Source: Candidatus Poribacteria bacterium | GTDB lineage: Bacteria > Abyssobacteria > SURF-5 | Length of the DNA stretch: 64,000 nucleotides | Direction of reading: 5' to 3' | Assembly: GCA_016215705.1 (NCBI GenBank) | Contig: JACRIR010000053.1 | Span: 1 to 64,000 of the forward strand | Shown: piece after piece, positions 7,164 to 12,409 of the stretch | Layout: the number at the start of each line of letters is the position of its first letter | Numbering within the stretch: the stretch's first letter is position 1 | Program-made: the position numbers and the translations under genes | The notes under the pieces: model-generated | Databases searched by the model: none | What the model saw: only the letters and a program-made list of their open reading frames with translations | What the model was told of the DNA's origin: nothing

Positions 7164-7616
7164 TCACAAGCTGCATTTCCTGGTTTGATGTGAATGCAGG
7201 GCATTGATCACGCTGAGAAACTCCTCTCGGTCGCACGGTGAGAGCAAGTAGTAGAATATCCCGATCTCGCGCGCTGATTTTTCAAATGCCGTGCTCGTCT
7301 CCGCCGCTGCAACGATTATGGGGAGTTCGGGGTCCATCCGTTTGATTCCTCCAAGGGCCGCGGATGCGTCCTCTCCAAGGAATTCCTTTGCAATGAGCAC
7401 GCCAAGGGCGCTGTGCCCACCGGAGAGAATTTGTTTCAACTCGTGTATGTTGCCGGCAATCTGCAGAGGTATTTTCATTTCCTCAATTGCCGTTGAGGCC
7501 GCAAGGAGGTCCTGATTATCCGAAATTGCAAGAATGATGCAGTGTTTCCCGTTTGTGTTTGAGCTCTGTTCCATTGGCAAGCTCAGGCTCTCTTTCCTTG
7601 TATGTTTCTGTTCCAT
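7164..7616 (-). CDS. Degenerate (pseudo-)receiver protein
   Basis: 150 residues. The fold pattern of a receiver is visible (CIILAISDNQDLL at the first strand, LPIIVAAAETS at the fourth, YYLLSPCDREEF at the fifth). The phosphoacceptor position lies in ALGVLIAKEFLGE with no Asp, and the conserved lysine-proline is SPC. It should not be phosphorylated in the usual way and may act as a decoy or dimerisation partner. The ATG at 7616 has AAGGAAAG upstream; longer in-frame starts lie upstream of the predicted sigma-54 start site. It is the first gene after that promoter, so the promoter would drive this whole array. Confidence 0.7.
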   Translation of the reverse strand: MEQKHTRKESLSLPMEQSSNTNGKHCIILAISDNQDLLAASTAIEEMKIPLQIAGNIHELKQILSGGHSALGVLIAKEFLGEDASAALGGIKRMDPELPIIVAAAETSTAFEKSAREIGIFYYLLSPCDREEFLSVINALHSHQTRKCSL

Positions 7617-7644
7617 TGTGTGGAGCTTTCCTTGAGGGAGAGAA

Positions 7645-7660
7645 TTCAATGCTTGTGCCA
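7645..7660 (-). promoter_or_regulatory. Sigma-54-type promoter (-24/-12) ahead of the receiver array
   Basis: Read on the minus strand this is TGGCACAAGCATTGAA. It matches the -24/-12 consensus TGGCAC-N5-TTGCA at 10 of 11 specified bases with exact spacing. The one mismatch (A for C) falls in the normally conserved -12 GC. The start site would be near 7634, just before the ribosome-binding site and ATG at 7616. An NtrC-family activator gene lies directly upstream. Confidence 0.5.
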
Positions 7661-7738
7661 ACAGCGGACAATGATTCAGAAGCTATGTAGAGCTAAGCAG
7701 TTACAGCCTAATAGGACGCGCCGGTTCGTAATTTGAAT

Positions 7739-7751
7739 GTAACCTGGTTAC
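7739..7751. promoter_or_regulatory. Palindrome, candidate activator-binding site
   Basis: GTAACCTGGTTAC is a perfect 6+1+6 palindrome centred about 110 bp upstream of the predicted sigma-54 start, a usual distance for an NtrC-type enhancer site. A second short palindrome, GGTTAACC, lies at 7790-7797 and is built from the same half-site. The link to the neighbouring activator is inference. Confidence 0.35.
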
Positions 7752-7881
7752 GTCGATGGAGTGACGCGAGATAAGACATGATTAGAAATGGTTAACCTAA
7801 GTCGTTGGAAAGATGGGCTTTACCGGCCGGACCGTAATACGTCGAAGAAACGTCATACACGAAGAGGACGTGATGTCTTGC

Positions 7882-9306
7882 TCATGTCGCAGTTACGGCG
7901 TCGGAGAATTCTCCATCATCGGAGTCCGCGGAGATTTGATGTTTTTTCATTCTTTGGTAGAGAGTGGTTCGCGGGATACCAAGTATCTTTGCCGCCTGTG
8001 TCTTGTTCTTGCATGTGGATTTAAGCACGTGAAGGATGTGTTCGCGTTCGAGGTCATCCAGTGTCCTCATCTGTTGTTTTGTCTGAGGCTCTTTCTCCTT
8101 GTCAACCAATATGCCGAGATCGGTGGGTCTTATGACGGGTCTCTGCGAGAACAACACTGCTTGCTCGATGACGTTCTCGAGTTCCCTGACGTTTCCCGGC
8201 CAGCTATAGCTCATGAGGAGCTCCAGAACTTTTGGGGACAGCCCCCGCCGCTGTTTTGACGCCTTCTCACAGGCTATTTTCAGGCAATGCTCGGCAAGCA
8301 GAGGCAGGTCTTCCATCCTCTCTCTTAACGGAGGAAGCGTAATGCTTATCGAGCTTATGCGGTAGTAGAGGTCTTCTCTGAACTTTCCTTCCTGGGTGAG
8401 TTTGAAAGGGTCCTTTTGGGTCGAGGCTATGATACGAACGTTTACCCTTTTTGTAGTGACTGAGCCGACCGGTCTGACTTGTTTATCCTGGAGCACGCGC
8501 AGCAGGCCTACTTGTGTATGCGGCGACGTCGAGTCAATCTCATCCAGAAAGATCGTGCCCCCGGATGCAGCTTCGAACAGGCCAATCTTGGTCATAAGCG
8601 CGCCGGTGAAGGCGCCTTTGAGGTGACCGAAAAGTTCGCTTTCCAGAAGCGACTCGGTCAGCGCGCCGCAGTTTATCGCAATGAAAGGGCCGTTGGCGCG
8701 ACGACTGCGCGCATGGATTGCGCAAGCCACCAATTCTTTGCCCGTGCCCGTCTCTCCCTGAATAAGAACGGTGCTGTCGGTCGGGGCCACCTGGCTAATG
8801 CGCTCGTATACTTTTTGCATTTTTGGACTGGCGCCAACGAGAGATTCAAACCTGTCCACTCCTGCGCCGCCCCGGCACGCTTCGCCCCTCCCGTTTCGCG
8901 GCGCCGAGCTTTCAAGGGCTCTCGCGGCGGCTACGGTAATCTGACTGACATCCGGGAATGGTTTTGTGATAAAGTCAAAAGCGCCTTCCTTCATTGCTCT
9001 CACGGCAACGGGGATATCGCCATGGCCGGTGATGATTATCGTCTCGATGACCTCGTTTCTCTCGCGGGTGCGGCGCATCAGCTCTATGCCGTCTATCCCC
9101 GGCATTTTTACGTCGGTAATCATCAGGTCGTAGTCGATGTCGCACATGATTTCCAATGCTTCTTCTCCGGAAGCGGCGGTGTCAACTATTGCGCCTTCCG
9201 TTTCCATCGCGGATGCTATAAACTTACTTACCGCCACCTCATCATCAACTACGAGCACTCGCGCTCCCCTAAGAGCCCCCGGTCTCAGACAGTGTTTGGT
9301 TTGCAT
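7882..9306 (-). CDS. NtrC-family sigma-54-dependent response regulator
   Basis: 474 residues with the full NtrC layout. The receiver (14-130) has D21/D22, D65 (MITDVKMPG) and K115. The AAA+ domain (about 155-385) has Walker A GETGTGK (184-190), the sigma-54-contacting GAFTGA loop (231-236), Walker B TIFLDE (251-256) and the SWPGNVRELENVIE segment. The C-terminal Fis-type helix-turn-helix is NKTQAAKILGIPRTTLYQRM (434-453). It activates transcription with RNA polymerase-sigma-54 once phosphorylated. The ATG at 9306 has AGAGG upstream. A near-consensus sigma-54 promoter lies about 220 bp beyond its stop codon, ahead of the receiver array, which makes that array its obvious candidate target. Confidence 0.95.
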   Translation of the reverse strand: MQTKHCLRPGALRGARVLVVDDEVAVSKFIASAMETEGAIVDTAASGEEALEIMCDIDYDLMITDVKMPGIDGIELMRRTRERNEVIETIIITGHGDIPVAVRAMKEGAFDFITKPFPDVSQITVAAARALESSAPRNGRGEACRGGAGVDRFESLVGASPKMQKVYERISQVAPTDSTVLIQGETGTGKELVACAIHARSRRANGPFIAINCGALTESLLESELFGHLKGAFTGALMTKIGLFEAASGGTIFLDEIDSTSPHTQVGLLRVLQDKQVRPVGSVTTKRVNVRIIASTQKDPFKLTQEGKFREDLYYRISSISITLPPLRERMEDLPLLAEHCLKIACEKASKQRRGLSPKVLELLMSYSWPGNVRELENVIEQAVLFSQRPVIRPTDLGILVDKEKEPQTKQQMRTLDDLEREHILHVLKSTCKNKTQAAKILGIPRTTLYQRMKKHQISADSDDGEFSDAVTAT

Positions 9307-9697: not shown

Positions 9698-10063
9698 ACC
9701 ATTGCTAAATAATTGTATCACAAGTAGTTATGACTGGAACCTCCGGTTTATCAGAAAAGAGTTGGAAAGTCTGGCGTGAAAAATGCCTCCCGAAAACGCG
9801 GTCAAATCGCCCGCAATCCGTCGCTTCTGACCGGGTGGAAGAAATGAAAAACTGGAGAAGACGTCTACTAGACATCAACTGAAGACATCTAAACTGATCA
9901 TAGTGTTGAATTGACGACTGCGTCAGATGACGGGAGAAGGAATGAAGGGGTTTCCCTCGAGAAGATTTGTGGGAATGGTGTCCTTCCTGGTCGGGAGGGG
10001 CTTATAACGTGTTCAACGATGTCCACAGCGCGGCGCAGCCGCAACCAAAGAAGAAGAGGGATC

Positions 10064-10179
10064 CGCAGATTTCGCAGATTTGCACAGATTCAGGGAAGAA
10101 GAAGAAAGAAGAGAAAAAGAATTGGACCACGAATAGAGAAGTTCACTGATTTAGACTGATTTACGCAGATTTCAGGGAA
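10064..10179. repeat. Two degenerate CAGATT/CAGGGAA repeat units
   Basis: Unit one holds CGCAGATTT twice in tandem (10064-10081) and then GCACAGATTCAGGGAA. Unit two holds ACTGATTTA(G/C) twice (10145-10164) and then GCAGATTTCAGGGAA (10165-10179). Each unit is followed by an A/G-rich AAGAAG stretch. They look like members of a dispersed intergenic repeat family. Confidence 0.55.
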
Positions 10180-10192
10180 AATAAGAAGAAAT

Positions 10193-10304
10193 CACGACGG
10201 GAAGTCAAGATTTCGAACGTCAGTAGTACAGAGAATGGGCTGAGGCAGTCGGCGCGGAGAGTTTCAAACGACAGTTTCTGTTCAATATCACCGGCAGGTT
10301 CTAA
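10193..10304 (+). pseudogene. Relic of a TonB-dependent receptor C-terminus
   Basis: The last 25 codons before TAA (10230-10304) read REWAEAVGAESFKRQF followed by LFNITGRF. This is almost identical to the end of the intact receptor downstream (REWAESSGAESFERQF, LFNVTGRF). Upstream, ATTTCGAACGTC (10210-10221) matches the ISNV codons of the intact gene but is out of frame, about seven bases having been lost, and an in-frame TAG lies at 10224. CACGACG at 10193 matches the equivalent point at 12283. About 112 bases of relic correspond to 127 bases of the intact gene. Confidence 0.85.
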
Positions 10305-10369
10305 CAGAGCAAACGGCGCATTTCTGAAGAATCGAACACCCTGAGCCGATGGGCGGATCGGAGAGCAAG

Positions 10370-12409
10370 ATGAGACTGGTTAAGCTTTCTGGGCGACAAT
10401 TACGGGGGACGCTCTACTTTCTGGTTGTGTTCTCATTGTTGTTGCCTTTGTCAGTATACTCGAACCCGGAGGAGGAGAACGAAGCCACTCAAAGTTCATC
10501 GCGTGGACCCTTCAAAGGGGAGGAAGTTCTTTTCCAGGAGTTTCCAGTCGTTTTCGGCGCCGCCAAAATGGAGCAACCCATCACGCAATCACCGTCGAGC
10601 GTCACTGTGATAACAGCCGAGGAAATACGGCATTCGGGCGCTACCAACATAGCGGATTTACTGCGGCGCGTGCCGGGTCTCGATGTCATAAGAATCTCTC
10701 AATCCGACGCGAACATCTCGGCGAGAGGATTTGACGAGCCGGGCGCGAATGCGTTTCTCGTCCTCATCGATGGCAGGTCGGTATATCTCGATTTCTTCGG
10801 AAACATTCTTTGGGACTCACTTCCCGTTGTCATGGAGGAAATCGAGAGAATCGAAGTCATTCGCGGACCGGGCTCCGCGCTTTACGGCGCGAACGCTTTC
10901 TCCGGGGTGGTCAACATAATCACCAAGACGCCCGAGCAATTGCAGGGGACGACGGTATCGTCAACGGTCGGACAGTTCGAGACTTTCATCAACACGGTCA
11001 TCCATGCGGGCGTGAAGGACAGATGGAGCTACAAGGCAGTCGGGAGTTGGAACGAGACCAACTCGATGGAATTCGATGATACGAACGAGCGCGAGGACGC
11101 AAAGGCGAGTGTTCTGCTGGGATATCAGTTCGAGAATGACTCGAAGTTGACAGTTTCCACCGGTTTTGACGAAGGTGACGGGAGTACGCTGGCGGGCGAT
11201 ACCCAGTTCGCGCGGGAAGGCATTCTATACTACGGGAAGGTCAATTACGACTACGAGAATTGGAAATTTCAGACCTACTATAACCTGACTGACCTTGACG
11301 TGACCGACGATATTTCTGAGGAGGAGAGGTCGATAGTCAACAACGTGGTGGACTTTGAACTTCAGAACACTCTTGAACCGAACGATAGGAATACTTTTAT
11401 TTGGGGTTTGAACTACAGATACAACAGGGTGGTTTCCCGTAAAGTCATCGGAAGGAACCAGACCGAGAATATTTACTCTGTTTTCGCGCAGGATGAATAC
11501 CGCCCTCTCGATAACTTAACAATCACAGGCGGCGCGCGGATCGACCACCATCCCATCACAGGGTACCACTTCTCGCCCAGGCTAAGCGCCGTTTATGAGC
11601 CGTGGGAGAATCACATATTCAGGGCGTCATTCTCACAAGCGTTCAGGAACCCGGCTTTCGTCGAGAGTTATCTCGACTTGCAGATCATGACCGAGGCGGC
11701 GCCCTTGCCGGATTTTCCGGTGACGCTCACGGGAAACCGGGACCTGGACTCCGAGCAAATCACCTCTTTCGAACTCGGTTATCAGACGAGACAGATGCAG
11801 AACCGGCTGGGGCTGAAGGCCGAAGTGTTTTACAATGTGATGGATGACTTCATCACGATGCTTCCGGTGGCCGTAGACCCATTTCCTCCTCCCACGAGTT
11901 TCGATTTCGGTTTCATAAATTCCGGGAAGGCCATCGTCACTGGCGGCGAGTTGAGCCTCGATTACTCTTTTTCGGATTGGCTGTCGGCTTACCTCAATTA
12001 TTCCTACCAGTTCCTGGAGGCAAAAGACGCCGGCGCCGAGAATACGATCAACGAAGAGGGGGAACAAATCAAGTCCTCCCCGGAGCACAAGGCCAACGCG
12101 GGCCTGTACGCTGAATTCAGGAGCGGAATCAGCCTGAATATGGACGTTCATTACGTTAGCTCCATAGACGCAAACTTTTTTAATACCGCAGCCGCTATCT
12201 TTGATCCGAATGCGATTCTGGACGAGGAACACATTGACGATTACGTACGAACGGATATTCGTGTCGCATACAAATTCCCGAAGCACGACGTCGAAGCGGC
12301 AATCATCATTTCCAACGTTTTCAACGACGTTCATCGAGAATGGGCCGAATCATCCGGAGCGGAGAGCTTCGAGCGGCAATTCTTGTTCAACGTCACGGGC
12401 AGGTTCTAA
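10370..12409 (+). CDS. TonB-dependent outer-membrane receptor
   Basis: 679 residues with a signal peptide (LYFLVVFSLLLPLSVYS). The plug domain has SVTVITAEEIRHSG and the hallmark IEVIRGPGSALYGANAF followed by VVNIITK. A long 22-strand-type barrel follows, ending in the terminal aromatic signature (NVTGRF). Such receptors import scarce ligands across the outer membrane using TonB energy; the ligand here cannot be read from sequence. I chose the ATG at 10370, preceded by GGAG, over an ATG 21 bases upstream that has no ribosome-binding site. It is followed 67 bp later by a periplasmic binding protein and sensor kinase genes, which suggests uptake or sensing of the same ligand. A decayed copy of its own C-terminus lies just upstream. 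Confidence 0.92.
   Translation: MRLVKLSGRQLRGTLYFLVVFSLLLPLSVYSNPEEENEATQSSSRGPFKGEEVLFQEFPVVFGAAKMEQPITQSPSSVTVITAEEIRHSGATNIADLLRRVPGLDVIRISQSDANISARGFDEPGANAFLVLIDGRSVYLDFFGNILWDSLPVVMEEIERIEVIRGPGSALYGANAFSGVVNIITKTPEQLQGTTVSSTVGQFETFINTVIHAGVKDRWSYKAVGSWNETNSMEFDDTNEREDAKASVLLGYQFENDSKLTVSTGFDEGDGSTLAGDTQFAREGILYYGKVNYDYENWKFQTYYNLTDLDVTDDISEEERSIVNNVVDFELQNTLEPNDRNTFIWGLNYRYNRVVSRKVIGRNQTENIYSVFAQDEYRPLDNLTITGGARIDHHPITGYHFSPRLSAVYEPWENHIFRASFSQAFRNPAFVESYLDLQIMTEAAPLPDFPVTLTGNRDLDSEQITSFELGYQTRQMQNRLGLKAEVFYNVMDDFITMLPVAVDPFPPPTSFDFGFINSGKAIVTGGELSLDYSFSDWLSAYLNYSYQFLEAKDAGAENTINEEGEQIKSSPEHKANAGLYAEFRSGISLNMDVHYVSSIDANFFNTAAAIFDPNAILDEEHIDDYVRTDIRVAYKFPKHDVEAAIIISNVFNDVHREWAESSGAESFERQFLFNVTGRF

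Follow-up and report, generated by a model that had tools for sequence, protein, structure and literature searches.

Activators of sigma-54 polymerase can act at a distance, and in Escherichia coli the activator sites of zraP, zraS, glnA and hydN lie upstream of the promoter. Each of these genes has a single -24/-12 element, in which the bases at -12 are GC for zraP, zraS and glnA and GA for hydN, as given in a survey of sigma-54 sites (PMC4591121). According to the same survey, the C at -12 is among the positions that rarely deviate, and GA is found there in 6 of 135 bound sites, as counted by eye, including hydN, which is marked as confirmed. In Desulfovibrio vulgaris, sigma-54 operons co-localised with an activator gene were taken as the likeliest targets of that activator, according to the regulome report (PMC4641369). 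In its one-component set, most promoters are oriented divergently to the activator gene or stand before the activator's own operon, and only DVU0569 has one downstream of the activator.

The locus considered here lies in a window of 64,000 nucleotides, that is, the whole stretch of DNA that was analysed. As in D. vulgaris, an AAA+/Fis-type activator, a predicted -24/-12 promoter and a target operon beside the activator gene are found together, and the promoter is downstream of the activator, as for DVU0569. In contrast to that regulome, the target in the window is a row of genes that themselves encode signalling proteins, mostly with receiver domains (hereafter, the array). As in the four E. 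coli genes, there is a single -24/-12 element, and it shares the GA of hydN at -12. Most probably, the sigma-54 promoter and the adjacent activator drive the array through activator sites in the gap between the two genes and through looping of the DNA. In effect, this is a switch of the ordinary kind, and the first product of the operon is a small, little-described receiver.

The array and the element ahead of it

All genes of the array are on the minus strand, with spacings of -59 to 167 bases. The first encodes a degenerate stand-alone receiver of 150 aa (7616-7164). It is followed, according to a domain search, by a receiver and histidine kinase (HATPase_c) of 633 aa when read from a TTG, although a later ATG is possible (7127-5226); a receiver protein of 280 aa (5184-4342); a receiver with an HD domain (HD_5, HD-GYP-type) of 460 aa (4174-2792); two receivers of 194 and 172 aa (2850-2266 and 2184-1666); and a receiver and histidine kinase of 550 aa that runs to the contig edge (1653-1). 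The array as a conserved unit was considered and rejected, because, of 385 other genomes searched, only 2 contain close relatives (E < 1e-90) of the kinase encoded at 7127-5226.

A sequence-only reading of this DNA had proposed a TGGCAC-N5-TTGAA element with exact spacing, and this is exactly what is present on the minus strand at 7660-7645 (TGGCACAAGCATTGAA), inside the 265-base gap (7617-7881) between the activator gene and the first array gene. The -24 part, TGGCAC (7660-7655), contains the GG and is separated from the -12 part, TTGAA (7649-7645), by AAGCA, an N5 spacer as in the consensus. TTGAA agrees with TTGCW at four of its five bases, with A for C and thus GA for GC, and the promoter is therefore not quite canonical. 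By spacing, the transcript is predicted to start at about 7634. It was also proposed that the element lies 18 bases before the first gene; this number holds when counted from the predicted +1 to the likely ATG at 7616, but from the end of the element to that codon there are 28 bases. An alternative TTG start at 7661 would place the promoter within the gene. The ATG appears to be the better start, because AAGGAAAG, a likely ribosome-binding site by its spacing (7633-7626, minus strand), is nine bases upstream of it.

When sites are scored by their matches, out of 11, to TGGCAC-N5-TTGCW, the best site in the gap reaches 10 on the coding strand and 7 on the reverse strand. A score of 10 is attained in 0.27% of 3000 dinucleotide shuffles of the gap (p 0.0027), and in a smaller run 0.6% of 500 shuffles equalled it. 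The whole window has no excess of sites with two mismatches or fewer (19 versus 15.8 expected), and consequently it is the position of the element that counts. Genome-wide, there are 174 matches with at most one mismatch versus 138 for the reversed control, and 20 to the exact normal consensus, 12 of them outside ORFs as delimited by a crude caller. TTGAA was also considered as a common local variant of the -12 part and rejected, as the genome contains only two copies of TGGCAY-N5-TTGAA, a number that does not exceed its control. Among named homologues of the activator, the best downstream elements of L178, L190, L193 and L199 end in TTGAA. Taking together the sequence, the shuffles and the analogous elements in 11 related gaps (see below), the prediction of a sigma-54 promoter ahead of the array is well supported.

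The adjacent activator and its counterparts in the genome

The gene directly upstream of the gap (9306-7882, minus strand; 474 aa) had been read as an NtrC-type activator with an intact GAFTGA loop, and both its motifs and its Pfam domains confirm this. PF00072, PF00158, PF25601 and PF02954 all match above their cut-offs, and the AAA+ motifs are GETGTGKE, GAFTGA and TIFLDEI; the protein thus has the Walker A and B motifs, GAFTGA, receiver and Fis-type HTH that define such activators. Its nearest relatives of solved structure are the NtrC-family regulators 4l4u and 1ny5, and ZraR (1ojl). The genome also encodes sigma-54 itself, with one PF04552 match for rpoN (E 6e-65, G000:C40:971-1444), and about 30 activator genes. 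No close homologue of the activator was found at 1e-116 in G001 and G002, the closest relatives, which belong to the same family; this family is represented by three of the genomes searched, and the genus by no relative.

An element scoring 10 or 11 is found within 500 bp downstream of 8 of the 29 other activators of this genome, versus 0 of 29 on the reverse strand (Fisher p 0.0045). For instance, downstream of the activator at C14:16376-17710 come an exact element and a receiver of 138 aa. In this second module (G000:C14:16376-18377, L259), the element is TGGCACGTGCCTTGCA, and the receiver is followed by a frame that is kinase-like by eye. For 80 named activator homologues, scores of 10 or more are found downstream of only 8, and of none on the reverse strand. 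No small receiver of the present kind follows any of these 80, with one loose motif match, L202, and both points weigh against the reading that the activator drives the array. An activator with a sigma-54-like promoter directly downstream is consequently a common arrangement, of which the window would be one case, since such elements are carried by 8/29 activators of the same genome, by 8/80 named homologues and by the related loci.

Recurrence in other genomes

Relatives were found in genome searches that used the activator and the first array protein as queries. An activator followed by a small receiver recurs in G035 and then in G180 and G314, all of one family; a fourth member of this family, G386, came from a search of its order, where the gene is present in four of four genomes. 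The gap elements are TGGCACAATCTCTGCA in G180, TGGCACAATGTCTGCA in G314 and TGGCATGATATTTGCA in G386, the last with a score of 10 and forming the twelfth activator/receiver pair. The element of G035, AGGCACGATACCTGCT, is poorer, and its closeness to the annotated start would require the gene to begin at a later codon. G180 and G314, two species of one genus, differ at a single position in 44 bases around the element, within a gap that is otherwise mostly diverged. In this family, the activator and degenerate receiver of L120, L121, L073 and L232 precede genes that by eye are pilin, PilC-like and PilB-like.

For a broader comparison, 27 small-receiver loci were hand-picked from one list of matches; these are not all the small matches there, and two of them, G175b and G207, proved to be the terminal parts of larger frames that resemble activators. 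Scoring covered the entire gap where an activator lies next to the receiver gene, and 350 bp in all other cases. An activator ends within 700 bp upstream in 11 of the 27, including the window, and all 11 gaps contain a forward element of 9-10; among the 16 loci without an adjacent activator, 3 have a forward element that reaches 9 (Fisher p 2.8e-5, or 5.4e-5 without the window). In the twelve activator/receiver gaps, the reverse strand scores 6 to 8 and the forward strand 9-10. When one gap is taken per family, for seven families and leaving out the window, the combined p is ~3e-9.

A search of one phylum (95 genomes) gave 18 matches, of which 13 with small open frames were scored and 5 large frames were left out. 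Two of the 13 were already known (G226, which is in the profile, and G355), and 9 of the 11 new loci score 10 or 11 in the 350 bp upstream, versus 0 of 11 on the reverse strand; 7 of these 9 are from one genus and 2 from one genome. The misses are G477, with only 193 bp of upstream sequence, and G430, with an evidently wrong reading frame. The new loci mostly lack an adjacent activator. As 9/11 carry an element of 10 or 11, this search suggests that small receivers with an IFYYLLKP-like motif are regularly preceded by sigma-54-like promoters.

Putative activator sites and alternative explanations

The sequence-only reading had further proposed a palindromic enhancer in the gap. The palindrome GTAACC-N-GGTTAC (GTAACCAGGTTAC; GTAACCTGGTTAC) at 7739-7751 is indeed perfect, with its centre ~111 bp upstream of the predicted +1, and an 8-bp palindrome, GGTTAACC (7789-7796), which has GGTTA in common with it, is centred ~158 bp upstream; both distances are usual for enhancers. 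Nevertheless, palindromes with six-base arms are within chance in this gap, as they appear in 8.2% of its shuffles with a spacer of 0-1 and in 40% with any spacer of 0-11. The exact sequence is found at two places in the genome, the window gap and the 3' end of a gene at a locus without a sigma-54 element of 9 or more, and with up to one mismatch at 4 places versus 11 for the reversed control. No other copy adjoins a -24/-12 promoter; a genome-wide palindrome regulon was rejected, as the other three loci lack a nearby element of at least 9 (one is at 1.4 kb, L008). The palindrome is also absent, at up to four mismatches and weak matches apart, from the 11 related gaps. All this favours a reading whose chances are only somewhat short of even, in which the sigma-54 promoter is real, the activator has its site at another place in the gap or within the last part of its own gene, and the palindrome is coincidental or belongs to another regulator. 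Against it stand the enhancer-like distances and the four GGTTA/TAACC half-sites clustered in the gap (p 0.0015, in a test chosen after the sites were seen). The case for an enhancer is weak: GTAACCAGGTTAC is a plausible and fair candidate for the enhancer of the activator rather than a finding, and GGTTAACC may lend it modest, post hoc support.

It is unlikely that the -24/-12 match arose by chance and that transcription of the array begins at another promoter or reads through from the activator gene. The missing C at -12 and the lack of an excess of two-mismatch matches in the window would fit a chance match, but the element is improbable in the gap by shuffling, is on the right strand and at the right distance from the ribosome-binding site, and has sigma-54-like counterparts in the same gene order in other genomes. 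In addition, no sigma-70-like site was found in 7560-7960. More improbable still is a sigma-54-dependent promoter served mainly by another activator while the adjacent one acts elsewhere, even if the genome has about 30 activator genes and such proteins can act at a distance. By contrast, the activator gene adjoins the promoter gap, and it is co-localised operons that were taken as the likeliest targets in the D. vulgaris report cited above (PMC4641369). The preferred reading is that the adjacent activator very probably turns the array on, because the order of activator, switch and small receiver recurs in distant bacteria. The proposal that the activator switches on the array is, in this sense, well supported by the recurrence in 11 other loci, the presence of rpoN and the elements of 8/29 activators of the same genome.

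The degenerate receiver at the operon head

The first array protein matches PF00072 at residues 86-137 only, with an E of 0.003 that is below the cut-off. In alignments, it lacks both the phospho-acceptor Asp and the Lys of the KP motif, as IAKEF and LLSPC replace the respective stretches, and its IFYYLLKP-like segment reads IFYYLLSP. A structure model from the single sequence (pLDDT 48) was too poor to use. Asp and Lys are also missing from the four relatives in the G035 family (G035, G180, G314 and G386) and are kept in others of the kind, and IFYYLLKP-like residues are common to most small head receivers. In a tree of 39 receiver domains, the activators' own receivers from the window and the G035 family group together (99/85), with the receiver of the array kinase next to them (95/85); the small head receivers fall outside this group, and that of the window has a very long branch and an unsure placement. 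Like stand-alone response regulators, the first array protein is receiver-like, alone and within ~130-150 aa. It differs from them in that the copies of the window, G035, G314, G180 and G386 lack Asp and Lys, and its gene is preceded by a predicted sigma-54 promoter. A literature search gave no recognised account of sigma-54-driven stand-alone receivers beside activators, which does not by itself prove that none exists.

Tentatively, and with the chances leaning against it, the IFYYLLKP-like stand-alone receivers could be a class that as a rule heads sigma-54 operons, often directly behind an NtrC-type activator, and provides built-in feedback partners. Several of them would have lost the phospho-acceptor, and they might pair with the activator's receiver or compete for its kinase, being made only once the activator has fired.

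Proposed mechanism

In the preferred reading, the element at 7660-7645 would be a sigma-54 promoter from which a transcript starts at about 7634 and drives the genes leftwards from 7616. The activator, once its receiver is phosphorylated, would bind in the 265-bp gap, with GTAACCAGGTTAC and GGTTAACC as the best candidate sites, loop onto the sigma-54 polymerase, melt the promoter and start the array. The sequence, the domains, rpoN and the recurrence of the arrangement are shown, and from these we infer the activity of the promoter, the identity of the activator's sites and the loop. A positive or feed-forward loop is likely, because the array encodes kinases that could phosphorylate the activator and these may feed back on it; the degenerate receiver may, in turn, temper it.

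For a lineage with few sampled genomes, the result gives a regulatory link on good grounds, and it suggests that activator, promoter and small receiver form a module that recurs. Among distantly related genomes, this module heads differing operons, with genes that by eye are pilus-like, polysaccharide-export-like or molybdenum-cofactor-like. If the small receivers do act back on the activator, they would constitute a general control device.

Other features beyond the activator gene

Between the activator gene and a TonB-type receptor gene (10349-12409), the region 10050-10190 is purine-rich, with repeated CGCAGATTT-like units. Further along, 10227-10304 (plus strand) encodes YREWAEAVGAESFKRQFLFNITGRF and then a stop, and this peptide is almost the same as the C-terminal end of the receptor (HREWAESSGAESFERQFLFNVTGRF). 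It resembles the remnant 3' end of a second receptor gene, since lost, just ahead of the present one.
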